Assembly (NCBI GenBank): GCA_020723925.1
Contig: DYHX01000007.1
Coordinates: 1 to 42,726 of the forward strand
Direction of reading: 5' to 3'
From: Nitrospira japonica
GTDB taxonomy: Bacteria; Nitrospirota; Thermodesulfovibrionia; Thermodesulfovibrionales; DYHX01
Length of the DNA: 42,726 bases
Shown piece by piece: positions 2,877 to 17,211 of the stretch. The position numbers and the translations under genes are program-made. Within the stretch, counting starts at the first letter, position 1. Every line of letters begins with the position of its first letter. The notes under the pieces were generated by a model that did not search any database, had not been told where the DNA came from, and saw only the letters and a list, made by a program, of their open reading frames with translations.

Positions 2877-2885
2877 CCGGTTTTC

Positions 2886-3092
2886 CTATAAATGTTCAAT
2901 ATCATCCCTTTTTTCTCCTTTTAACTTCTTCTCAAGATACTCCTTTGCAATATCCCTTCCCCCAAGTCCAAAGGCTATGGCAAGGGCAAGTACTACACCA
3001 CCAAATATTATTGCAAAGGCAATAATTATTGTCCCTCTACCTATACACCTTTGGTGTGTCCAGTCTCTACGGGTCTCAGTATAATCTCGCAC
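2886..3092 (-). CDS. Small single-TM protein resembling the last TM helix of TM-helix-repeat/MscS-like proteins; possible gene remnant
   Basis: IIFGGVVLALAIAFGLGGRDIAKEYLEKKLKGE motif in a 68-aa ORF. Confidence 0.45.
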   Translation of the reverse strand: MRDYTETRRDWTHQRCIGRGTIIIAFAIIFGGVVLALAIAFGLGGRDIAKEYLEKKLKGEKRDDIEHL

Positions 3093-3211: not shown

Positions 3212-3613
3212 ATGAAAGATGCTGATAAAAGAATCGCCTCTGAGATTTTTTATTCAGCGTTAAAAGCCGTTGACCCTTATAGTTCTGTAAAACTCTACGC
3301 AGATAGAATTCTTTCGGTATATCACAGCAATAATTTTAAAAGAGTTTTTGTCATAGGTTTTGGTAAAGCAGTATGTCCTATGGCAGAGGCAGTGGAAAAT
3401 TCCTTGCCGGATTTGATTGATGCAGGGGTCGTGATTACGAAATATGGATACAAAATAAGTCATAAGTCGAAAGCCAGGAGCCAGGAGTCAAAAATAAAAA
3501 TTTATGAGGCAGGGCATCCAATCCCTAATGAAAATGGATTAAAAGGCACAGAGGAGATAATTAAGCTCCTTTGTGATGGATGTTCAGATTATGATGATAG
3601 AATGAGAAAATAA
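3212..3613 (+). pseudogene. Truncated glycerate 2-kinase (GckA/TtuD-type), N-terminal part only
   Basis: VFVIGFGKAVCPMAEAVE, DAGVVITKYGYK, YEAGHPIPNENG motifs; about 133 aa versus about 430 aa for full-length family members. Confidence 0.75.
3455..3489. repeat. Degenerate heptad tandem repeat (5 x 7 bp) inside the glycerate kinase fragment
   Basis: ataagtc ataagtc gaaagcc aggagcc aggagtc. Confidence 0.75.
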
Positions 3614-3618
3614 AGACT

Positions 3619-3644
3619 TAAGGGCAGGCGAATGCCTGCCCTTA
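3619..3644. terminator. Intrinsic, probably bidirectional terminator between convergent genes
   Basis: TAAGGGCAGGC-GAAT-GCCTGCCCTTA, perfect 11-bp stem, between convergent ORFs. Confidence 0.7.
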
Positions 3645-3650
3645 GTGGTT

Positions 3651-5585
3651 TTACTTCTTTGTCCCTTTTTCAAATATCCGTTTCAGTATCTCTTTATGCT
3701 TTGCATCGGTCTTTGCAAAGCCTGTTACATCGGTCACTTTCTTCCATATCGCAGCATCCTTCTGGTAATCATGGCATGAAATGCAGATATTGACTCTCAT
3801 AATCCTGTCCTGTTCCTCTTTGTTAAACGGTCTTGCACCGTAATGGCTCGTTGCCTGAAGCTGCTTGCCGTTGTCATCAACAATTCTCTCAAGCTCAAAT
3901 GGAATGTCAAGTCCGTTTGCCTTTGTATTGTAAATACCGCCGCCAAGACCCAATGTCTTTTTGTTTGAATGGCAATCCTCGCATGTTCGCGCCTCTTTGC
4001 TAATTGTATGCGGCTGAATTGGATTATGGGCAAAACCTGAAAATCCATCATAAGTGTTAAAGACCTTATTCTGCATTGTCACCTTCCCATCAGCTCCGAC
4101 CTGTGTGAATATCGCCTGACATCCTGGAATAAATGGAGAGACCTTGCCCTTTTGGTTTATTCCAAGCACTGGACTTTCCCACCTTACATATGAACGAGTC
4201 TCATCCCATGTAAATGCAGTTTTTTCTCTATTAGCCCTTTTACCTGCTTTTGAGATGTCTTCAGGCTTTGTAGTATTTATCCAGTCGCCTGATGGTTTGC
4301 CCAAATCCTGCTTTGCATGACAGCCATAACATTGAGGCGCCCATTTTGCGTGACAGGCATAGCACTCCATTTTATTTAGGTGTGCAGGGATACTCTTTGC
4401 AGACTGCGCCAGTAAAGAGCCTTTGGTTACTACATCCTTTGTTTGAGGAATAATGTGGTCTTTGCCTGTAATCTTTGCCTTAAGAATAATCTTATCGCCA
4501 TCTTTCCTGAGATTCTTGAGAGGGTCACCCAAGGAGGTCTTGAGATTGCTTGCAGATTTTGAACTACCATGGCAGTCCTCGCACCTTATCTCTGTTGCCT
4601 GATGTTTTTTACTGTAAATATTGCCGTCGCCATGCAGTTCCTTTTTGGTGTGGCAATCTATACAGGTCATGCCCTTTGTGTAATGAACATCTGCTGTTAA
4701 ATGGTTATACCACTTTCCATGAAGGGTAGGTTGTTTCTTCCCGTCTGCAGTCCACGGAGAGCCATAATCATCGGATTCTATGGTTCCGATATAGCTTACG
4801 CCTGTCCTTCCTCCCCTGTTATGGCAGTGGATACATTGAAATTCAGGAATCTTATTTGTAATCCTGTGAACTATCGGCCTCCCCTTTTGTTTCTTGTCTA
4901 TTGCCTTATCGCCGCCCTCATAAGTTCCCTTGTTGCTATATACTGTATGGCAAGCCGCACATCCTGATGCCCTCCAATCGCCATCTCTTTCATGTCCCGA
5001 ACTCCAAATATGGCACCTCAAACATTGCTCCCTCAAGTAATCATCAACAATGTGATTGGTATCACTCATAGGTTTTTTAGGGTCATAGAGGGGAAGCTGC
5101 TTCAATGACTTTAAGGCGCCTTTCTTTTCTGGCACATTTCCATCTTTGTCTTCTACATCGTAAGTTGCGTAAATTGCGTTTTTGGTCTTCTGTGCGGCAT
5201 TGGTATATCTGGAGCCGCTTATCTTTCCAGCCATTGTGGCATGGAGTGATTTTTTGCTGTTTTCAACATCCGCTGCATGACACTTTCCGCAGGTCTTATC
5301 AACAGCCCTTAAATCGCTGGGGTTTGCATACATTCCCCTTATATGCGCCTCTTCTTTTGTCGCGCCTGCAGGATTCCCCAGATGACATTCTATGCAGGTT
5401 AGTTTTGACATTACAGGTCCATCGCTTATCTGCTCAATCCCTTCATGACATTTCAGACACCCTGCGTCTGCCGGATTTGCAGCCTTTGCCATCTGCGTGG
5501 AGGCATCTCTAAATTGGGCAAATACAAACAGGGAAGCTGCTGCAAGAATAAGAAACATTACAAAAAGTTTTCGTTTCATCTTCAT
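3651..5585 (-). CDS. Secreted dodecaheme c-type cytochrome
   Basis: Signal peptide; 12 CxxCH motifs counted by eye (CLKCH, CIECH, CGKCH, CLRCH, CAACH, CIHCH, CIDCH, CEDCH, CYACH, CYGCH, CEDCH, CISCH). Confidence 0.92.
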   Translation of the reverse strand: MKMKRKLFVMFLILAAASLFVFAQFRDASTQMAKAANPADAGCLKCHEGIEQISDGPVMSKLTCIECHLGNPAGATKEEAHIRGMYANPSDLRAVDKTCGKCHAADVENSKKSLHATMAGKISGSRYTNAAQKTKNAIYATYDVEDKDGNVPEKKGALKSLKQLPLYDPKKPMSDTNHIVDDYLREQCLRCHIWSSGHERDGDWRASGCAACHTVYSNKGTYEGGDKAIDKKQKGRPIVHRITNKIPEFQCIHCHNRGGRTGVSYIGTIESDDYGSPWTADGKKQPTLHGKWYNHLTADVHYTKGMTCIDCHTKKELHGDGNIYSKKHQATEIRCEDCHGSSKSASNLKTSLGDPLKNLRKDGDKIILKAKITGKDHIIPQTKDVVTKGSLLAQSAKSIPAHLNKMECYACHAKWAPQCYGCHAKQDLGKPSGDWINTTKPEDISKAGKRANREKTAFTWDETRSYVRWESPVLGINQKGKVSPFIPGCQAIFTQVGADGKVTMQNKVFNTYDGFSGFAHNPIQPHTISKEARTCEDCHSNKKTLGLGGGIYNTKANGLDIPFELERIVDDNGKQLQATSHYGARPFNKEEQDRIMRVNICISCHDYQKDAAIWKKVTDVTGFAKTDAKHKEILKRIFEKGTKK

Positions 5586-5641
5586 CTCCTTTCTTATCTT
5601 ACTTGATGGTTTCTTGCAACCTTCTTTGGAATTTCTGTCTG

Positions 5642-5971
5642 CTATTTTCCTTTCAAAGACTTGATATAGGCGGTAATATTTGCCATGTCTGCAGACTTTG
5701 CATCTATTGCCTTGCCTTTCATCATCATTTCAATACACATATTAACTGCCGCCTCAAGGCTTTTTGCCTTGCCTCCCATGAACTCCTTCTTGGCGGCATC
5801 TATACCGCTTCCATCCTTATGGCATGAGTTGCATGATTTGCCCGATGTGCCGCCTCCAAATTTAGTATCGTTAAAGAGCGTCTTGCCTTTTGCTACATCC
5901 GCTGCAAAGGCAAAGGAAAAGATAAGCCCGAGGGCTACTATTGACAGCACTGCGATTTTTAAAACCTTCAT
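5642..5971 (-). CDS. Monoheme c-type cytochrome, periplasmic
   Basis: Signal peptide; GKSCNSCHKDG heme motif; 109 aa. Confidence 0.88.
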   Translation of the reverse strand: MKVLKIAVLSIVALGLIFSFAFAADVAKGKTLFNDTKFGGGTSGKSCNSCHKDGSGIDAAKKEFMGGKAKSLEAAVNMCIEMMMKGKAIDAKSADMANITAYIKSLKGK

Positions 5972-5983
5972 TTTTACCTCCGA

Positions 5984-6718
5984 TTAAAATATGTTTTTGG
6001 TTTTTTCTGCATCCAATTCCGAGACAATGGAATACATGAGTCCCCTGTCTGCCCATAACAGGATTATGTAGCCGCTTTTATTCAGCACATAAGCCCTTTT
6101 GTCTTTTAACATCACCTCCTTTTTGCTTTTTAAGTCATCGGGAATAGCTTCGTCCGTAATAAAGACGGATACTGGAGAGCCGTTGTACTCGTAAAAGAGC
6201 AGGGCGAAATGCCTTTTATCAAGGATGCACAGCCTGCCCCCTTTGAGTCTTGCATTGAGAGACGGCGGTATTACGGCAAAATTAACCTTACTCCTGAACC
6301 ATGCCGTAACCTCATCAGAGTTGGAAGAACCGATATGCATCTGCGGTACAGGCAGGAATTTCACATGGTCGTTTACAATCTTGTTGAGGATAGTAGGAGC
6401 TTTTGTATGCGTTGAGTATAGATACCCTACCACTGAAATAATCAGGATGGAAGCGGCAACAGCAAGTATTTGATACGGCCGCTTCAAATATCTTTTTTTC
6501 TGTTCCCCTGCGCTCAATATCTTATTTTTCAGTTCTTCCGGTGGTGAATCCTTTTTAATGGCGCTTCTCAGCATGGGACCGAAAGACTTCTCAGCATCAA
6601 GAAACGCACTGCACTCACGGCATTCCTTTGTATGTCTTTTTGCTTCAAGCATGTCCTGACTTACTACCTCAGGATATTCGGACAGGTATGTTATTTTTCT
6701 TGCATTGCTACACTTCAT
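5984..6718 (-). CDS. Anti-sigma factor, zf-HC2-like, single TM
   Basis: N-terminal Cys/His region (MKCSNARK..HTKECRECSAF), central TM (ILAVAASILIISVVGYLY), overlaps the upstream sigma gene. Confidence 0.8.
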   Translation of the reverse strand: MKCSNARKITYLSEYPEVVSQDMLEAKRHTKECRECSAFLDAEKSFGPMLRSAIKKDSPPEELKNKILSAGEQKKRYLKRPYQILAVAASILIISVVGYLYSTHTKAPTILNKIVNDHVKFLPVPQMHIGSSNSDEVTAWFRSKVNFAVIPPSLNARLKGGRLCILDKRHFALLFYEYNGSPVSVFITDEAIPDDLKSKKEVMLKDKRAYVLNKSGYIILLWADRGLMYSIVSELDAEKTKNIF

Positions 6719-7256
6719 TGCTCTTACCTCTTAAATAACCCCTGTTTTTTGCATATTCATAAAGGGCATCCCTCAGAAGCATCCTCCCTCTGTAAAGCCT
6801 TGATGCCAGAGTTCCTGAAGAGATATTCAGAATCTCCTGCACCTCACGGTATGAGAGTTCTTCAATGTCAACGAGTAAAACGACCATCCTGAATTCCACC
6901 GGCAGGGACTCAATGGCCTCTTTCGCCTCTTCATCCATGACAGCAGAGAATATCTCCTTTTCAAGGTCAACATACTGGCCACTTTTATAAAAAATAGGTT
7001 CAAGAAAATCAGGCTCTACATCTATCTCTTCAGGAGAGTTCTGTTCCTTTTTGTATTTGTTGATGAATGTGTTGGTAAGTATTTTCAGAAGCCATGCCTT
7101 TGCCTTATTTTCAGAACGCAAAGACCCAATATTTTCAAATGCCTTAAGGCATGTCTCCTGCACGAGGTCTTCGGCATCCTGTCTGTTTTTTGTAAGCCTC
7201 ATTGCAGTAAACCAGATAGAGTCAAGATACTTTTCTATCAAATCAGTGTATTCCAT
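6708..7256 (-). CDS. ECF-family RNA polymerase sigma factor
   Basis: Region 2 (FTAMRLTKNRQDAEDLVQETCLKAFENI) and region 4 (LPVEFRMVVLLVDIEELSYREVQEILNISSGTLASRLYRGR). Confidence 0.95.
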   Translation of the reverse strand: MEYTDLIEKYLDSIWFTAMRLTKNRQDAEDLVQETCLKAFENIGSLRSENKAKAWLLKILTNTFINKYKKEQNSPEEIDVEPDFLEPIFYKSGQYVDLEKEIFSAVMDEEAKEAIESLPVEFRMVVLLVDIEELSYREVQEILNISSGTLASRLYRGRMLLRDALYEYAKNRGYLRGKSNEV

Positions 7257-7373
7257 AATTTAACTTCCGCTCTTCAGCACTTCCGCACTACATTTTGCAC
7301 AGCCCGAATGCCTTTCTATAAGAATAGACAAATTTTACTCGCAAAATCTTCCCGATGATAATAAAATAATCAT

Positions 7374-8233
7374 GTGAAAAAACTTATCATCTTCACAGAC
7401 CTTGATGGGACACTTTTAGATTATTCAACGTATTCTTTTGAGGCGGCTATACCCGCCCTCCAATTACTCAAAGAAAAGAATATCCCCCTTATTATCTGTT
7501 CAAGCAAGACAGGAAAGGAGATAGAGCATTACAGAAAAAAACTTGGCAATACTCATCCCTTCATCTCTGAAAATGGTGGAGGGATATTTATTCCAAAAGG
7601 TTATTTTGATTTCAGAGTTGAGAGTTCAGAGTTCATGAAGAAAATGATTATCTTGTCATAAGACTCGGTGCAAAGTATTCTGACCTGAGAAAGGCGATAA
7701 CAGAATTAAGAGAAGAGGGTTTTGATGTTAGAGGTTTAGGAGACATGACAGCAAAGGAGATTGCAGAGATAGCAAACATGGGCATTGATGAGGCAGAGAT
7801 GGCAAAGGAGAGGGATTTTGATGAGCCTTTTATTTTTGAAGGAAATGAAGAAAAACTCTTTGAAACAATTAAAGCAAAAGGTTTTAATTATACTCAGGGG
7901 AGATTTTTCCATATCCTCGGCAACAGTGATAAAGGAAAGGCAATATCCATTCTAATTGATTTATACAAAATAAAATTTGGCGAAATTATAACTATCGCCA
8001 TAGGTGACAGTCCCAATGATATCCCGATGCTCGAAAAAGTCGATTATCCGGTCATTGTCCAAAAACCCGATGGAAGTTATGACCAGCGAATAAAGGTACC
8101 TAACATAATAAAGGCAGATGGCATCGGCCCAGATGGCTGGAATAAGGCAATTTCAAAAGTTATAGTCATTCCCCGAATTGATCGGGGAATCCAGAGCAAA
8201 GGAGCTGGATTCTCTGGCCAAGCCAGAGAATGA
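7374..8233 (+). pseudogene. Mannosyl-3-phosphoglycerate phosphatase-like HAD hydrolase, frameshifted at a heptad repeat
   Basis: ORFs 7374-7661 (FTDLDGTLLD, SSKTGKEIEHYRKKL, ISENGGGIFIP) and 7745-8233 (GRFFHILGNSDKGKAI, AIGDSPNDIPMLEKVDYPV) are two parts of one HAD protein in different frames. Confidence 0.85.
7613..7633. repeat. 3 x 7-bp tandem repeat (cagagtt/gagagtt/cagagtt) at the frameshift
   Basis: Direct reading of gatttcagagttgagagttcagagttcatgaag. Confidence 0.85.
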
Positions 8234-8234
8234 C
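8165..8234. repeat. Small inverted-repeat element GTCATTC...GAATGAC with two hairpins; overlaps the C-terminus of the HAD ORF
   Basis: gtcattccccgaattgatcggggaatccag...ctggattctctggccaagccagagaatgac. Confidence 0.8.
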
Positions 8235-8278
8235 ACATAGAAATCCTATAAAAAGCTACAGGGAATTATAAGTTAAAA

Positions 8279-9505
8279 CTATTCCTTAGATTTTCTCATC
8301 AGCCTGCCGCCCCTCGGAATGATTGCTATTCCGGATGGATCTATATGACACCGAAAACGGTCTCTGTCAGGGTCAAAGCCAATTTGCTCCCCTTCATTTA
8401 TTACATTTAACTTATCCACAATCACCCTTCTGAGACTGCATCCTTTTTTAAGAACCGTCTGGTCCATGATTATGCAATTTTCTACGCTGACATTATCTTC
8501 GATTACAACCCCGCTCCTGATAACCGAATTGCGTATCTTAGCCTTACGGATAACAGTACCTTCGGCGATTATGCTGTTTCTTATGTCTCCCCTCAATATC
8601 TTTGCAGAAGGCCCTTCATAACCTGACGGATGGATAGGCCACAATCTATTGCCAAGTTCAAACAATGGACGGTCGCCCAACATGTCCATATGGGCATCAA
8701 AATATGAGGATATAGTTCCAACATCCCTCCAGTATCCCCTCTCCTCATAATCCATGGTCCCCGGGATGGTGTTTGTTGCGAAGTCATAGGCAAAGACCTT
8801 CCTTGTATCCACGAGGTCTGGTATAACATGGGCGCCGAAATCGTGCTGTTTTCTTCTTTGTGCCTTTGCCAGTGCATCCAACAACACATCCTTGTTAAAT
8901 ATGTAATTCCCCATAGAAACATAAGCACGTGTCGGATCATCAGGCATGGGGGTCGGTTTTTTCGGTTTTTCCTGAAAACCTATTATCCGTTTTTCGCTGT
9001 CGGTCTGAATAACTCCGAAGGAAGATGCCTGCTTAACAGGGATGGGCCTTGCCGCAACAGTAACAAAGGCATCTTTCTCAATATGAAAATCTATCATCTG
9101 GCGGATGTCCATTTTGTAAATGTGGTCTGCACCAAAGACTATAACAAGTTCGGGGTTATGCTGCTGGATAAGGTTAATATTCTGGAAAACCGCATCGGCA
9201 GTGCCCTGAAACCACTCCGGCCCCATGCGCATCTGTGGAGGCACAACCGTAACAAAATGATCCCTGATAACAGGAGATAAGACCCAGTTCTGCCGCACAT
9301 GCTCTATTAGAGACTGGGATTTGTACTGCACTAAAAGATAAATAGAATAAATATGTGAATTAATAAAATTGCTCAGGACAAAATCCGCTATCCTGTACCT
9401 TCCGCCAAATGGAACCGAAGGTTTAGAACGGAATGCCGTCAACGGGAAAAGCCTTTCCCCCTTGCCTCCGGCAAGCACAAATGCAAGAACCTTTGGGTGC
9501 GCCAT
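8279..9505 (-). CDS. glgC: Glucose-1-phosphate adenylyltransferase
   Basis: FVLAGGKGERLFPLTAFRSKPSVPFGGRYRIADFVLSN; FGADHIYKMD; left-handed beta-helix C-terminus. Confidence 0.95.
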   Translation of the reverse strand: MAHPKVLAFVLAGGKGERLFPLTAFRSKPSVPFGGRYRIADFVLSNFINSHIYSIYLLVQYKSQSLIEHVRQNWVLSPVIRDHFVTVVPPQMRMGPEWFQGTADAVFQNINLIQQHNPELVIVFGADHIYKMDIRQMIDFHIEKDAFVTVAARPIPVKQASSFGVIQTDSEKRIIGFQEKPKKPTPMPDDPTRAYVSMGNYIFNKDVLLDALAKAQRRKQHDFGAHVIPDLVDTRKVFAYDFATNTIPGTMDYEERGYWRDVGTISSYFDAHMDMLGDRPLFELGNRLWPIHPSGYEGPSAKILRGDIRNSIIAEGTVIRKAKIRNSVIRSGVVIEDNVSVENCIIMDQTVLKKGCSLRRVIVDKLNVINEGEQIGFDPDRDRFRCHIDPSGIAIIPRGGRLMRKSKE

Positions 9506-9529
9506 TTAAAACCTCCTTGCTGCTAAATC

Positions 9530-10243
9530 TTAATTCTCATTTAATTTTCTCAATGTCTTTACAGCCTCATCCCTTATATGTGGATCTGCATCATTATCCA
9601 AAACTCGTTTCACAAAAGGGATTGCTGACTCATCCCCGGTTTTTCCAAGCGCCTTTATTGCACTCATCCTGATTGCAAAGCTCTTATCGTTTAATGCAGA
9701 AATCAAATACGGTACAGCCTTTCTGTCGCCTATGTTGCCGAGAGACTGCATTGCCGCCTCTCGCACATACAATGTCTTATCTGTTAATGCATCTATCAAT
9801 ACATCCACCACCTTTGAATAGTTTTTGAAATTACCGAGGGCAAGGGCGGCATTCCATTTTAATGCAGGGCAGTCATAGGTAAAGAACGGGTCATCCAATA
9901 CTTTTATTAATAAATCTACTGCCCTGGGATTTTTAATTTCAGCCAACAGCTTTACTACTCTAACCTGAATCTTCCAATCCTCACCTTGATTTTCAATAAC
10001 ACTCATAAGCGCCCTGACCGATTCATCATCCCTGATTCTGCCCAATTCTTCAATTGCCAAAATACGAACTCTCAGGTCATTATGCTGGAGTTTCAGAATC
10101 AATTTATCGATATCGTCTGCATAGACGTTTCCTTTTGTGATTAAAAACATACCGCATAAGGAAACCACAAATGCAACGACAACCATTGCTGACTTGAGCG
10201 AAACCGATATTCTTTGATAGCGTCGTGAGCGAAAATTAGTCAT
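9530..10243 (-). CDS. HEAT-repeat protein with N-terminal signal/TM segment
   Basis: Repeated LLAEIKNPRAVDLLIKVLDD / AMQSLGNIGDRKAVPYLISALND units. Confidence 0.85.
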   Translation of the reverse strand: MTNFRSRRYQRISVSLKSAMVVVAFVVSLCGMFLITKGNVYADDIDKLILKLQHNDLRVRILAIEELGRIRDDESVRALMSVIENQGEDWKIQVRVVKLLAEIKNPRAVDLLIKVLDDPFFTYDCPALKWNAALALGNFKNYSKVVDVLIDALTDKTLYVREAAMQSLGNIGDRKAVPYLISALNDKSFAIRMSAIKALGKTGDESAIPFVKRVLDNDADPHIRDEAVKTLRKLNEN

Positions 10244-10274
10244 GCTTGTTGCTTGTATCTCGATTTTGTTTTTA

Positions 10275-10961
10275 TTACTGCGAAAACCTTTTCAGCGCTA
10301 AGAGTGCTTCGTCCTTTATAAGCGGATCCTTGTCATTTTCTGCAATATTCCTCAAATAGGGGAATGCCTGCGAGTCTCCGATCTCTTCAAGGGACTTTAT
10401 TGCACCGAACTTAATTGCAAAACTCCTATCATCCAATACAGATATCAAAAAAGGCACAGCCTTTGAACTGCCAACCCTTCCCATGGTTTTTATGATAGCC
10501 TCCCTGACCACAGGATTGTCCTCAAACCTTGATGCATCGAGGAGTATATCGACTGCCTTCGGATCTTTTATGAAATTACCGAGGGCGGTGACAGTGCTCC
10601 ACTTTATTGCAGGGCAGTCATGATTAAGAAACGGGTCGCTTAGTATGTTCTCCAGAAAACCGAGCGCCTTCTGCTTTCTGCTCTCACCGAGCAGCTGGAT
10701 TGCCCTGATCCTGTATCTCCAGTTCAGCATTTTGTTTTCGACAAGGCTGATGAGCGCATCCGTAAGCCTGTCGTTCTTTATGCCCTCTGCACCGCCGTAT
10801 AGCGGTAAACGATTCTGCCAGTCATTTGTCTGAATGTCTGATATTAATTTATCAACATCCAGTTCGTCGGCAAACGACTCACCGACAGACACAACAAACA
10901 GAGAAACAAGAAACAAGAAAACAGTTATGTGAAAATTTTTTCTATAATCGGTTGAAAACAT
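10275..10961 (-). CDS. HEAT-repeat protein, tandem paralogue of 9530-10243
   Basis: Signal peptide plus HEAT units; ALGNFIKDPKAVDILLDA, VGSSKAVPFLISVLDDRSFAIKFGAIKSLEEIGD. Confidence 0.85.
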   Translation of the reverse strand: MFSTDYRKNFHITVFLFLVSLFVVSVGESFADELDVDKLISDIQTNDWQNRLPLYGGAEGIKNDRLTDALISLVENKMLNWRYRIRAIQLLGESRKQKALGFLENILSDPFLNHDCPAIKWSTVTALGNFIKDPKAVDILLDASRFEDNPVVREAIIKTMGRVGSSKAVPFLISVLDDRSFAIKFGAIKSLEEIGDSQAFPYLRNIAENDKDPLIKDEALLALKRFSQ

Positions 10962-11023
10962 CCCTTCCCTCCTTATTTAAAACTTTTTTATTTTAATACT
11001 CCGTTCATAATAATATCCACTGC

Positions 11024-12181
11024 TTAAAGTACGACTATCGAAATGGCAGCTCCTATGAGTACCACATAAAGAACATCAACCCTTTTAGCCAGTGCAATTA
11101 ATGCACCCAGTCCGAACAATAGCCTGACAATATCCCAGGGCACAGCCAATGCAAATTTTAAAGTCACATAAAATAGGAGTCCGACAAAGGATGCAAGTAT
11201 TCCCTTTGTTGCCCTTAAAAAATACGCGGATGTCTTTAGTCTGTCAAAGAAAGGTGTGGCAACAATCAGTATTAAGAAGGAAGGTGTAAATATTGCTATG
11301 GTTGCCACTATAGAACCCAACAGGCCATATAACAAATACCCAACGAAGGTAGCAGTGATGACAATAGGACCGGGGGTGATCTGCCCTAATGCAATCCCAT
11401 CCATGAATGTCTTATGGTCCATCCACCCCTTCACATTCACGAACTCATGAAGCATCAATGGCACAGATGCAAAACCGCCTCCGAATGCAAAAAGGTCTAT
11501 CCTGAGCATCATGGCTGCCAATCTAAAGAGCTTTATATCTGCAACATAAAGCACCGAAAGTCCTGCCAGCAGGATTAAAAATAGCAGCGCAATTTGCTTG
11601 AACATCCATCGGTTCCTTTTCTTGCCATGAGCTGAAGAGATTGTGAAGCTGACACCTCTGAAAAAGACGATGCCTGTCATGGCAGCACCTATAATAACTA
11701 TAAAGGGGCTTATGCCCGACCAGAAAAGGAAAGCTGCCACGGCAGATATAAAAATCTCTTTGTAACTCCTCAATATCCCCTTGCCAAAAGAATGCAATGC
11801 GTTTGCGATGAGGGCAACAACAATAACCTGAAGACCATTGAACAACGAAATGATCAGTGAGATGTTATGGGATCTCTCGTATAACGCTGACAGTATCAGC
11901 ATCAGAATAAATGCAGGCAGTCCAAATCCAATATACGATAATAATGCACCTGTTATCCCTTTCGTTCTCAATCCGACATAAGCCGCCATCTGTATGGCGG
12001 TTGCACCGGGTATGGATTGACAGAGGGCGATACCTTCCTTAAATGTCTCTTCATCCACCCATTTATTGCGTTTTACAGAAAGCTCCTTTATATACTGGAC
12101 CATCGCAGGCCCGCCGAAGGCTGTAATGCCGAGCCTGAGAAAGGAGAGGAACAACTGAATGATTGTAGGCCTTTTATCCAT
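11024..12181 (-). CDS. chrA: Chromate transporter family protein (two-domain ChrA)
   Basis: FLRLGITAFGGPAMVQYIKE..PGATAIQMAAYVG and second half RIDLFAFGGGFASVPLMLHE..TPGPIVITATFVGY; start set to MDKRPT (12181), overlapping the TSUP stop codon. Confidence 0.88.
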   Translation of the reverse strand: MDKRPTIIQLFLSFLRLGITAFGGPAMVQYIKELSVKRNKWVDEETFKEGIALCQSIPGATAIQMAAYVGLRTKGITGALLSYIGFGLPAFILMLILSALYERSHNISLIISLFNGLQVIVVALIANALHSFGKGILRSYKEIFISAVAAFLFWSGISPFIVIIGAAMTGIVFFRGVSFTISSAHGKKRNRWMFKQIALLFLILLAGLSVLYVADIKLFRLAAMMLRIDLFAFGGGFASVPLMLHEFVNVKGWMDHKTFMDGIALGQITPGPIVITATFVGYLLYGLLGSIVATIAIFTPSFLILIVATPFFDRLKTSAYFLRATKGILASFVGLLFYVTLKFALAVPWDIVRLLFGLGALIALAKRVDVLYVVLIGAAISIVVL

Positions 12182-13110
12182 TAGAAATACTGAACAATAT
12201 ATCTTATTGCAAGAAAGACTATAACAATGCCAAGCATCAGCTTTATAAACCTTTGCGGCACAAACTTCTGAAACCTCGCACCTAAATACATCCCTACAAA
12301 ACCACCTATTCCGAACAGTATTCCCAGAGACCAATCCGGCATTGCAGAAACTCCATTCACTGCAGGGATGATGCTGAAAAACAATGCGCCTGCAATGGTA
12401 TAGACAGGCAGATGGAAAACAGCCACACAGAATGGCGCAATTATCGAGCCGCCGCCGATCCCGTAAGCGCCGCCTATAACGCCCACAACAAGCGCAAGCA
12501 TAAACATGCCAATAGTATTGAAAGAAAACCTTTCTCCCCAGAATTCGTATTCTACCTCTCTCAATGATACGGATACTGTCTTTACCACTGCATCTTTAGG
12601 CAGACCTGATGCTATTTTTGCGCTCTGCAATCTCTTCGCCTCATCTATCCTTGCCTTGAACTTCTCTTCCAGAGTCTTTGCAGCAGAGGACTTCTTCGAC
12701 TTTACTATGATTTCCTTTAAAAGCCTGATGCCTATGTAAAACAGCACGCAGCCGACAAAGAATTTAAAGGCCTTCGGGTCGGGTAGATAAAATACCCTCA
12801 CATAGTATCCAAGAAAAACACCGGGCAATGTACCCGCAACCACTACCCATGTCAAAGGCCATGCCATGCGTCCTTCTTTAATATAACGGTAAACTCCGCT
12901 CGGAATTGCAACAACATTAAAGACATGATTTGTCCCGCTCACGGACGGAGCAGTATAATTGAGAACGCTCATCTGATAAGGAAGAAGGAGAAATGCACCT
13001 GAAATTCCCCCCATTGATGTAAAAAAAGAGATAAACATCGCAACCAATGGTGGGAGAATGATATTGGTCTTAACGCCGGAAATGGGAAAGAGGATGTTTA
13101 GAAAATCCAT
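12181..13110 (-). CDS. TauE/SafE (TSUP) family permease
   Basis: MGGISGAFLLLPYQMSVL, GGAYGIGGGSIIAPFCVAVFHLP; multi-TM. Confidence 0.88.
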   Translation of the reverse strand: MDFLNILFPISGVKTNIILPPLVAMFISFFTSMGGISGAFLLLPYQMSVLNYTAPSVSGTNHVFNVVAIPSGVYRYIKEGRMAWPLTWVVVAGTLPGVFLGYYVRVFYLPDPKAFKFFVGCVLFYIGIRLLKEIIVKSKKSSAAKTLEEKFKARIDEAKRLQSAKIASGLPKDAVVKTVSVSLREVEYEFWGERFSFNTIGMFMLALVVGVIGGAYGIGGGSIIAPFCVAVFHLPVYTIAGALFFSIIPAVNGVSAMPDWSLGILFGIGGFVGMYLGARFQKFVPQRFIKLMLGIVIVFLAIRYIVQYF

Positions 13111-13171
13111 AAGGCTTCCACCTCATCAATTATTAGTCCTAATTATAGCAAAAATTATTTATACTAACCTT

Positions 13172-14620
13172 ATGTCCAGACTGAGCATATTCCACCGGCT
13201 GATTATAGGCTATTTGGCCGCGTTCGTCCCCATTATTGCGGTAAGTATATATTCCATCTTCCAGTTGCAGCAATTCACCAGCATTACCAGCTCAATCATA
13301 AACATCGATAACCGCACCATAGACTATGAGAAGAAACTTACCGATTCCCTGCTTTCACAGATACGATACGAGAGAAAATATATCCTTATAAAAGATGATT
13401 CGCTTTATGACCGATTTCTTCTGTCAAAAATTGACTTCGCCAAATATCTTGATGAGGCCGTGTCGCTTTCGGGTAATCCTCAAAAAATGGGCTTATTAAA
13501 AACAATAAAAGAGCATCATAACCGCTATCAATCCATCTTTGACAAAGAGGTGGAACACCTGAGGGCAAACAGGCATTATCCGCAAGCGCAATATAAGCAG
13601 GAAAAGGAAAAGACCGTAGAAGAAATAATGGAAGGACTGAAGAGACTTAGGGCACAAAGCCGGCAGGACACCTATGATAGGATAAAAAATCTGAGAGATT
13701 CGGGTATCAGCTCCAGAAGGCTGGCTGCTGCAATGGCTGTAATAGCCGTTTTATGGGGAATCGGCACGGCATTCTTTATCACAAAAAGCATTGCAGAGCC
13801 GCTCTCTATGGTAATAAACAAGACAAGAGAGGCATCCGGAGGAGTCTTAAAAGGAGACCTGAATGTAGCATCTCCTCCGGAGATTGTTGAATTGGCACGC
13901 TCATTTAATTACATGTGCGATAAACTCGGTGAACTGGATAAGATAAAGTCAGACTTTTTCTCATCCATGTCTCATGAACTGCGCACTCCGCTAACTTCAA
14001 TAAAAGAAGGGACTAATCTGCTGCTTGAAGGGATAGGCGGAGAAACAACCGAAAAACAGAAAAGGCTTTTGACAATAATCGCAGAAGAGAGCAACCGGCT
14101 TATTGAGCTTGTGAATTCCCTGCTCGACCTTTCAAGGATGGAGGCAGGGATGATGCCTTTTAACATTATTGACACAGGCATCGATCAATTGATAAATAAA
14201 GCTGTTATGGAGATGGAGCCTTTATCGATGGCTAAGGACATCAGCCTTAGATTGGAAATAGCTTCTAATTTGCCTGCTGTTAAAATAGACGGAGAGAGGA
14301 TTCTTCAGGTGCTTAGAAACCTCATAGGAAATGCGATAAAGTTTACCCCCAATGGAGGAGGAGTCATCGTGTCTTCAGGGCTTGTGAATGGAAATATAGA
14401 GGTCAGGGTATCTGATACAGGGCCCGGCATACCTGAGGAGAGCCTAACAACAATATTTGATAAGTTTCAGCAGGCATCAATTTCTGATTCTTCTAAGATT
14501 AAAGGAACCGGCTTAGGATTGGCTATTGTCAAACACATAATCACAGCTCATGGAGGAAGGGTTTGGGCAGAGAGCGAATTGGGAAGAGGAAGCTCATTTG
14601 TCTTTTCATTGCCTACCTGA
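13172..14620 (+). CDS. Membrane sensor histidine kinase (HAMP-HisKA-HATPase)
   Basis: MSSMSHELRTPLTSIKEG H-box, LIGNAIKFTPNGG, DTGPGIPEESLTTIFDKFQQ, GTGLGLAIVKHI. Confidence 0.93.
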   Translation: MSRLSIFHRLIIGYLAAFVPIIAVSIYSIFQLQQFTSITSSIINIDNRTIDYEKKLTDSLLSQIRYERKYILIKDDSLYDRFLLSKIDFAKYLDEAVSLSGNPQKMGLLKTIKEHHNRYQSIFDKEVEHLRANRHYPQAQYKQEKEKTVEEIMEGLKRLRAQSRQDTYDRIKNLRDSGISSRRLAAAMAVIAVLWGIGTAFFITKSIAEPLSMVINKTREASGGVLKGDLNVASPPEIVELARSFNYMCDKLGELDKIKSDFFSSMSHELRTPLTSIKEGTNLLLEGIGGETTEKQKRLLTIIAEESNRLIELVNSLLDLSRMEAGMMPFNIIDTGIDQLINKAVMEMEPLSMAKDISLRLEIASNLPAVKIDGERILQVLRNLIGNAIKFTPNGGGVIVSSGLVNGNIEVRVSDTGPGIPEESLTTIFDKFQQASISDSSKIKGTGLGLAIVKHIITAHGGRVWAESELGRGSSFVFSLPT

Positions 14621-15009
14621 TAGCCTTTACCCTTGTTGGCTGCAGTGCGCTGAAAGAAAGGGTAAAGGAGAAAGAGGCATCCGGGCATCTGCTGCATGCA
14701 AAGGAGTTGCTTACACAAGGGGACTACGAAGGGTCGTTAAAGGAAACCCAGAAGGCCTTAAACATTTCAGGTAAAAATCCGCCCGGAGATGAGGCGCTCT
14801 TCAATATGGGGCTTATATATGCGCATCCAAAAAATCACAAGAAGGATTTTAAAAAGTCCCTTTTATTCTTCAGAAGGCTCATCAAAGATTATCCCCGGAG
14901 CCCTCTAACCGAGCAGGCTAAGATATGGATAGGAGTGCTCCATATGATAGAAAAGTCAAAGCAGGTTGATGTAGAAATCGAAGAGATGGAAAAGGAGATG
15001 TCCCGATGA
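14563..15009 (+). CDS. Small lipoprotein with tetratricopeptide-like helical repeats
   Basis: Lipobox LVGCSALKE; overlaps histidine kinase 3' end; [25 protein letters not shown]. Confidence 0.7.
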
Positions 15010-16097
15010 TTACACCTCCGAGAATATTAGTGGTAGATGATGACAGGAATCTCAGGCTCCTTGCATCAATCCTGAGCAGTCAGGGATATGCGGTAGAGAC
15101 AGCAGTCAATGGCATCGAGGCGATTAATAAGACAAAGAGCACGCGACCTGACATAATACTCCTTGATGTAATGATGCCAGAGATGGACGGTTATGAGGTG
15201 TGTGATAGATTGAAGTCTGACCTGTCAACCCGACCAATCCCTGTTGTGATGGTCACAGCATCGACCGATAGGGATTCAAGGCTCAAGGGACTTGAGGCTG
15301 GGGCGAATGACTTTTTGACAAAACCTGTAGACAGGGCAGAGCTTACCCTCAGGGTGCGCAATTTACTTAAGGTCAAGGAATATGAAGACTTTCTTAATGA
15401 CCATAATAGGATACTTGAAGAACAGGTTCAGGAGAGGACAAGGCAGCTCAAAGAGGCATTCCAGAATCTTGACATTGCCCACAAAAAGATAAAGGAAGGA
15501 TATCTTGACACGATATACAGGCTGACCCTTGCTGCAGAATACAAGGATGAAGATACAGCGACTCATATCAGAAGAATAAGTTACTATTCACAGACCCTTG
15601 CAAAAGTGCTTGGTCTGGGTTCTGATCTTGTAGAGACTATATTCTATGCGAGTCCAATGCATGATGTGGGCAAGATTGGCGTGCCTGACAGCATACTGCT
15701 TAAGCCGGGCAAACTCACACCAGAGGAGTTTGAGATAATGAAGTCGCACCCAACCATTGGCGCCAAGATACTGCGAGGCTCAGAATCAGCTTTTCTAAAA
15801 ATGGCAGAAAACATTGCCCTTACCCATCACGAAAGATGGGATGGAACTGGCTATCCGGGGGGTCTCAGGGGGGATGAGATTCCGATAGAGGGGAGGATTG
15901 TGATGATTGTTGACCAGTATGATGCCCTCAGAGCAAAGAGGCCGTACAAGCCAGGGCTATCCCATGATCGGGCATATGAGATAATTACCAAAGGTGACGG
16001 CAGGACCATGCCAGAGCACTTTGACCCGAAAATATTAGAGGCATTTAAGGAGGCTGCACCTGACTTTAAGAGAATCTTCGAGACATATCAGGGTTGA
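15006..16097 (+). CDS. Response regulator with HD-GYP domain (c-di-GMP phosphodiesterase type)
   Basis: Receiver [75 protein letters not shown]. Confidence 0.95.
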
Positions 16098-16098
16098 G

Positions 16099-17211
16099 GT
16101 GGGAGATAGAAAAAGTGGGACCATAGGTGTTATCTTATTGAACCTCGGCGGTCCTGATTCCATCGGATCGGTTAAACCATTTTTATATAATCTCTTTTCG
16201 GATAGGGATATAATAAAGCTTGGTCCTGCATTCATGCAGAAGCCATTTGCCTGGCTTATATCAAGAATGAGGGCGAAGAAGACAGAGAAGTCTTACAGTC
16301 TCATAGGAGGCAAATCTCCGATACTTGATATTACAATGGCTCAGGCAAAAGCACTTGAGGATGCTCTCAACTGTTCACTGTTCACTGTTCACTGTTCACT
16401 GTTATTCAAGGTCTATGTGGGTATGCGATACTGGCACCCTTTTATAGAAGAGACCGTAGAACAGATGCACAAAGATGATATAAAAAAAATCATTGCCCTG
16501 AGCCTTTACCCCCATTACTCTATTGCCACGACAGGGTCTTCGGTTAAAAAATTCAAAGAGGCAGTAATAAAAAGTTACATGGGTCGAGGGTCAAGGGTCA
16601 AGGAACAGCTTACGATAAGCAGTGGAGAGAAAATGCTCACTATTCGCTGTTCACTTTTCACTGTTCACTGTATAACCTCATGGTTCAATCATCCCATGTA
16701 TATAGATGCCCTTGTTGATGTCATAAAAAAAGGTCTGGAATCTTTCCCCCCCTCCCTAACCCTCCCCACTCAGAGGGGGAGGGAAGGGTGGGGGGATGTC
16801 CATGTGCTCTTCAGTGCCCATGGCCTCCCAATGCGGTTTATAGAGGAAGGCGACCCCTATGTGCATCAGATACAGGGCACTATAGATGAGATAACGAAGA
16901 GGATAAGTATAATGTGGGACATTTCTTATCAGAGTAAGAGTGGGCCAGTAAAATGGCTTGAACCATCGACAGATGATAAGATCAAAGAGCTTGCTAAAAA
17001 GGGTGTCAAAAACCTTCTAATAGTGCCCATAAGTTTTGTTTCAGACCATATTGAAACCCTATATGAGATCGATATACTCTATAAGGGGATGGCCGAGGGA
17101 TTGGGTCTTAATTTAAGACGGACGGAATCCCTGAATACACATCCAACCTTTATCAGGGCTCTTGAGGATATGGTTATAAAGAATGTAAAGGATCGTGGAT
17201 GGGTAGATTAA
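16099..17211 (+). CDS. hemH: Ferrochelatase with several in-frame repeat insertions
   Basis: GVILLNLGGPDSIGSVKPFLYNLFSD, SLYPHYSIATTGSS, LFSAHGLPMRF, VPISFVSDHIETLYEID. Confidence 0.93.
   Translation: MGDRKSGTIGVILLNLGGPDSIGSVKPFLYNLFSDRDIIKLGPAFMQKPFAWLISRMRAKKTEKSYSLIGGKSPILDITMAQAKALEDALNCSLFTVHCSLLFKVYVGMRYWHPFIEETVEQMHKDDIKKIIALSLYPHYSIATTGSSVKKFKEAVIKSYMGRGSRVKEQLTISSGEKMLTIRCSLFTVHCITSWFNHPMYIDALVDVIKKGLESFPPSLTLPTQRGREGWGDVHVLFSAHGLPMRFIEEGDPYVHQIQGTIDEITKRISIMWDISYQSKSGPVKWLEPSTDDKIKELAKKGVKNLLIVPISFVSDHIETLYEIDILYKGMAEGLGLNLRRTESLNTHPTFIRALEDMVIKNVKDRGWVD
16370..16404. repeat. Heptad tandem repeat (actgttc)x5 within hemH
   Basis: actgttc actgttc actgttc actgttc actgtta. Confidence 0.95.
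16581..16601. repeat. Heptad tandem repeat (gggtcaa)x3 within hemH
   Basis: gggtcga gggtcaa gggtcaa. Confidence 0.85.
16639..16673. repeat. Degenerate heptad repeat, same consensus as 16370-16404, within hemH
   Basis: actattc gctgttc acttttc actgttc actgtat. Confidence 0.85.
16746..16796. repeat. C/G-rich palindromic repeat within hemH
   Basis: ccccccctccctaaccctccccactcagagggggagggaagggtgggggga; encodes PPSLTLPTQRGREGWG in frame. Confidence 0.85.

Follow-up and report, generated by a model that had tools for sequence, protein, structure and literature searches.

Does a gene whose reading frame breaks at a tandem repeat of 7-nt units represent a reversible switch, or a gene that has been lost? 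The question is raised by a phosphatase gene in the window, by which we mean the whole 42,726-nt stretch of the MAG analysed here (referred to as G000). The original prediction held that a heptad expansion had frameshifted a mannosyl-3-phosphoglycerate (MPG) phosphatase-like gene, and that gain or loss of units could turn the gene on and off. Re-reading the sequence at 7602-7670 returned exactly what had been quoted, and the stop at 7661 is confirmed: from a GTG at 7374, frame 0 ends after 95 codons at a TAA (7659-7661), and the ORF listing shows the remainder of the phosphatase to be open in a different frame up to a stop at 8231-8233. The N-terminal part (7374-7661, forward strand), of HAD-IIB type, carries motif I (DLDGT) and CSSKT, with the TAA following the frameshift; the C-terminal part (7634-8233, forward strand) carries the DKGK and GDSPND motifs and has a single ATG of its own, at 7745. 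Both re-reading and TRF place the break exactly at a slippable tandem array of imperfect TTCAGAG and TTGAGAG units (7611-7635, forward strand; period 7, 3.6 copies, 88% matches, 16 of 18 lag-7 matches), and three arrays of such strength are observed in the window, against 0.01 per third-order Markov shuffle. The arithmetic of the prediction is likewise correct, in that two units out or one unit in restores the frame; the gene thus contains a tandem repeat in coding sequence with frame set by unit number, as a heptanucleotide contingency locus does. The two halves contain no further stop or indel, and their dN/dS against homologues (0.05-0.15) resembles that of intact-versus-intact pairs, although dS is near saturation and the test is weak. 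At its 3' end (8165-8233) the phosphatase frame enters a palindromic repeat, CCCCGAATTGATCGGGGAATCC, giving a low-confidence C-terminal tail that is also present in the closest homologue. An in-frame palindromic-repeat-like segment, NPPSPPFIRRGYLESPPLEKGDIGGFSKE, also occurs between the membrane segments of an MFS-type transporter at 202-1449.

The assignment of both halves to the HAD-IIB/MPGP family is upheld by profile matching: positions 1-76 and 77-257 of TIGR01486 are matched consecutively by the two halves (100.7 and 123.9 bits), each of which alone misses the cut-off of 164.75, and together they match along the whole protein, as does the intact homologue in the relative G033 (231.9 bits). 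The catalytic motifs (DxD, S/T, K and GDSxND) are all present in the DNA, but lie in two frames rather than in one polypeptide. The nearest structures by sequence are solved MPG phosphatases (PDB 1wzc and 3ztw); these mannosyl/glucosyl-3-phosphoglycerate phosphatases have family, motifs and domain order in common with the window gene, which differs from them in being split by a frameshift, and whose relatives adjoin gpgS-like and glycerate 2-kinase genes. MPG synthase can be ruled out as the partner, as PF09488 had no match in 61 genomes of the order (a Thermus control was positive) and the neighbour is the GpgS-like gene, a partial sequence that matches NF040724 (glucosyl-3-phosphoglycerate synthase) below its cut-off. 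Given the lack of an MPG synthase, and the kinase and NF040724-matching gene found beside the phosphatase in relatives, a role as glucosyl-3-phosphoglycerate phosphatase is likelier, and the gene is probably gpgP. A search of G000 for a second MPGP-family gene found none, ruling out a compensating copy there.

The comparison with orthologues that had been proposed as a check was made by cutting the loop DNA from approximately 80 homologues with protein anchors on both sides. Among closer homologues the loop is mostly 48 nt long, with 42 nt in some genomes of genus g12 and in G007, and its length is a multiple of three in every two-anchor homologue except the window gene and G158:C47, both of which have 41 nt. 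The closest homologue, in G033, encodes an intact protein of 291 aa, and its heptad array is of a similar kind but has one unit more than the array in the window. Because relatives have loops of 48 or 42 nt, and because of this longer array in G033, the lesion is one missing heptad rather than two extra, and the heptad expansion originally proposed is therefore wrong. When the intact protein of G033 was modelled with AlphaFold2 (mean pLDDT 91), the loop lay in the core-to-cap connection, and the frame break falls in the main in-domain dip in confidence (block 81-90, pLDDT 76, versus 93-98 around it).

Many of the loops consist of period-7 DNA with differing units (AAATCTC, AAATTTC, AGATTTC, AAAATTC, GAGTTAG). 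Of 28 loops tested against a null in which codons were recoded synonymously at the usage of the genome, 12 had an exceptional lag-7 match (reached in at most 10 of 2000 recodings, and in 0 of 2000 for L041, L046, L037 and L055); since it exceeds the synonymous-codon null, the loop repeat is a feature of the DNA rather than a consequence of the peptide sequence. The loops of L044, L053, L100 and L121 are longer through palindromic inserts, all in frame; these are of PPSPPFSKGG and VIPAK type, occur in other species, and mark the loop as an insertion-tolerant site. In G158:C47 (L120), where the phosphatase loop likewise lacks exactly one heptad, the kinase end upstream is intact and no further lesion was seen; an intact copy of the phosphatase gene lies on C69 of that genome. 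This second, independent case shows heptad-unit loss to be a real mutational path at this loop.

In many relatives the gene order is gpgS, kinase, phosphatase, with the phosphatase 3' of glycerate 2-kinase (overlapping it by ATGA in G033) and the gpgS-like gene divergent upstream; the full order in G033 is an MscS-like gene, a glycosyltransferase, a peptidase, gpgS, two small genes, kinase, phosphatase and glgC. No gpgS match was found anywhere in G000, either in a search that was positive for 17 of 40 relatives or with a full-length protein; this MAG is 93.8% complete in 106 contigs, and gpgS could sit in a gap, though its expected site shows a deletion. There, beside the 3' remnant of the MscS-like gene (2881-3044, reverse strand), the roughly 5.3 kb that come next in G033, including gpgS, are missing. 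The kinase is reduced to residues 6-115 of 434 (relic at 3212-3572, residues at 3224-3574, forward strand; 66% identical to the G033 enzyme), to which the final 33 nt of the gene are fused in another frame (3573-3605, forward strand); 29 of these are identical to G033, against 19 of 33 at the next best place in the window, and the relic has an internal deletion of some 300 codons. It also shows, relative to G033, an in-frame 21-nt heptad gain (AGCCAGG, AGCCAGG, AGTCAAA; 3470-3492, forward strand). The sequence ATGAGAAAATAA (3602-3613, forward strand) is likely a leftover of the phosphatase start, which in relatives overlaps the kinase stop.

Between kinase and phosphatase lies a 3.8-kb block (3614-7373) not so placed in G033, containing, all on the reverse strand, a multihaem cytochrome c (3651-5585), a small cytochrome c (5642-5971), a probable anti-sigma gene (5984-6718) and an ECF sigma factor gene (6708-7256). 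Downstream, positions 8001-15053 (forward strand) are 95-99% identical to G033:C61, against a genome background of approximately 70%, with the left breakpoint at about 7950-8000, inside the phosphatase gene. Consequently, the 3' part of the phosphatase gene arrived in a recent import, or through some equivalent exchange; G033 belongs to another family than G000. Neither flank of the segment is G033-like, which would argue against a simple chimeric contig.

With gpgS absent, the kinase gutted and the operon split, the locus lacks the functional gene and pathway expected of a contingency locus, and combines instead the inactivating lesion and lost pathway context of a pseudogene. We therefore consider it probable that the phosphatase is a recently disabled relic of a dismantled pathway, broken by the loss of a heptad. 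Comparison with relatives points to a lost osmolyte pathway. Under the mechanism that we propose, the core/cap loop would long have carried heptad arrays in this clade, and slipped-strand loss of one 7-nt unit would have reduced it to 41 nt and shifted the frame, parting the catalytic aspartates (in the N-terminal part) from the GDSPND motif (in the C-terminal part), so that presumably no full-length protein is made. Selection may have been relaxed by loss of the pathway, at about the time of the frameshift or earlier. The heptad was lost recently, or selection acted on the gene until recently, to judge from the low dN/dS and the clean frames on either side, although with dS near saturation the indication is weak.

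An alternative is that the 7-nt difference is an assembly or sequencing error, or a minority allele picked by the assembler. Assemblers err at repeats, the genome is a MAG, and the relatives are in frame; however, the 25-nt array is far below usual read length, 50 other arrays of the same assembly are in frame (many of them longer), and the remaining locus is broken independently, in gpgS and the kinase. We regard such an error as unlikely.

Reversible phase variation, in which heptad gain and loss would toggle the phosphatase within a population, is in our assessment very unlikely. The parts of the original claim that stand are the position of the break, precisely at a slippable array, and the reality of unit loss, and a switch would also accord with the independent one-heptad-short allele of G158:C47, where the kinase and phosphatase frames are otherwise clean, and with a window phosphatase of low dN/dS that lacks further lesions. 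What is not supported is reversible on/off function, given that the pathway partners are gone or gutted and that the gene no longer sits in its operon. Moreover, the tract amounts to no more than 3.6 imperfect units, almost every other homologue keeps the loop in frame, and the product is a cytosolic metabolic enzyme rather than a surface structure. Longer and cleaner heptad arrays lie in frame in essential-type genes of G000, and heptads in this genome consequently do not mark switchable loci. Poorest of all is the prospect that ribosomal -1 frameshifting or re-initiation bypasses the break to yield a functional product, either whole or as two pieces that complement each other: the reading frames are clean on both sides and TAGGAGAC precedes the ATG at 7745, but a classical slippery heptamer is absent near the break, a start at 7745 would lose approximately 37 cap residues, and the GGAGAC upstream of it is coding sequence, conserved in relatives as the peptide GFGDM.

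The array that broke the relic would itself be part of a clade-wide process that makes period-7 repeats of many units, mostly in frame within genes. In 519 kb of G000 (L140-L159, L180-L199 and the window, the contigs being picked by number and not at random) we found 67 period-7 arrays, against 0, 2, 6, 1 and 2 arrays of periods 5, 6, 8, 9 and 10, and by mechanical ORF counts 50 of the 67 are each contained in one ORF of 150 codons or more. Period-7 arrays were also found in G033 (27 in 320 kb), G023 (9 in 100 kb) and G011 (6 in 100 kb), and their abundance is common to the genomes of genus g12; none was found in 100 kb from each of G014, G021, G005, G008, G201 and G164, which represent six lineages. 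In G000 such arrays are mostly in frame and lie in housekeeping genes; those as good as or better than the phosphatase array occur in genes that the cell could ill afford to lose, including leuS (2), lpxK (3), queA (3), hemH (2), ychF, a holB-like gene, a GH3 gene and a cobB/cobQ-like gene. The two arrays of the ferrochelatase gene hemH lie within the window (16367-16403, with the unit ACTGTTC, and 16637-16671, both on the forward strand). Compared with their Pfam profiles, QueA, HemH and LpxK have extra residues (364 for 321, 354 for 315 and 374 for 319, respectively).

Of all the arrays examined in G000, none but that of the phosphatase was found to break its gene. A codon-model scan for other heptad frameshifts flagged six clusters, five of which proved to be gene boundaries and one (queC, L188) in frame; the model is noisy and was kept out of the counts. 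Arrays at gene starts seem to encode signal-peptide-like N-termini (L159:1650-1760, L186:19180-19285 and L197:4954-5061), the exported proteins concerned being an M16 peptidase, an outer-membrane-efflux-like protein and a flagellar MotE-like protein.

From these distributions we advance, at roughly even odds, the proposal that in one clade of Thermodesulfovibrionales an active process specific to period 7 keeps inserting and rewriting heptads of arbitrary sequence in coding genes, with selection retaining only frame-neutral outcomes in loops, such that core enzymes would gain segments of 7-residue period and genes losing their function would show heptads out of frame. Taken alone, the locus is an ordinary decaying gene, and the pattern across the clade outweighs it: tandem repeats of 7 nt are over-represented in many bacteria, and here the heptads are mostly intragenic, diverse in unit and in frame, with families of the same order showing none in equal samples. 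Owing to this contrast between heptad-rich and heptad-free families, the source of the heptads is testable by comparison of gene content, the candidates being a polymerase, a repair or recombination factor, or a missing repair gene. The locus also illustrates that a repeat-borne frameshift in a decaying gene can mimic a phase-variation switch when a single genome is read, and that heptads alone in a genome are no evidence of contingency loci.

Our literature search, of incomplete coverage, returned no report of heptads together with Nitrospira, and the closest parallels come from other bacteria. In neuO of E. coli K1 and phage CUS-3, a gene that modifies the capsule, 3-53 AAGACTC heptads (20 being commonest) lie close to the 5' end, and both ON and OFF alleles occur in different strains (PMC13001214). 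The phosphatase resembles neuO in that a heptad repeat within the coding sequence determines the frame through its number of units modulo 3, yet differs in its 3.6 imperfect units located mid-gene, its one OFF allele and its dismantled pathway. Heptads of Xanthomonas (GGGAATC; PMC4692102) and Beggiatoaceae (TAACTGA; PMC4679880), and those of STRR type in cyanobacteria, are reported to be mainly intergenic and of one or few unit sequences. G000 shares with all of these a genome-wide period-7 excess, and its units partly overlap the Nostoc GGGGA(C/T)T (CCCCAGT/CCCCAAT at L157:19194-19235), whereas it differs from all three in its great diversity of units and in the 50 of 67 arrays that lie in ORFs. 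Geobacter metallireducens carries 49 copies of four-heptad elements with one dispersed consensus (GGGACCG; PMC2700814); as there, the heptads of G000 occur within and between genes, sometimes several per gene, but its arrays are without a common unit and have the period alone in common.
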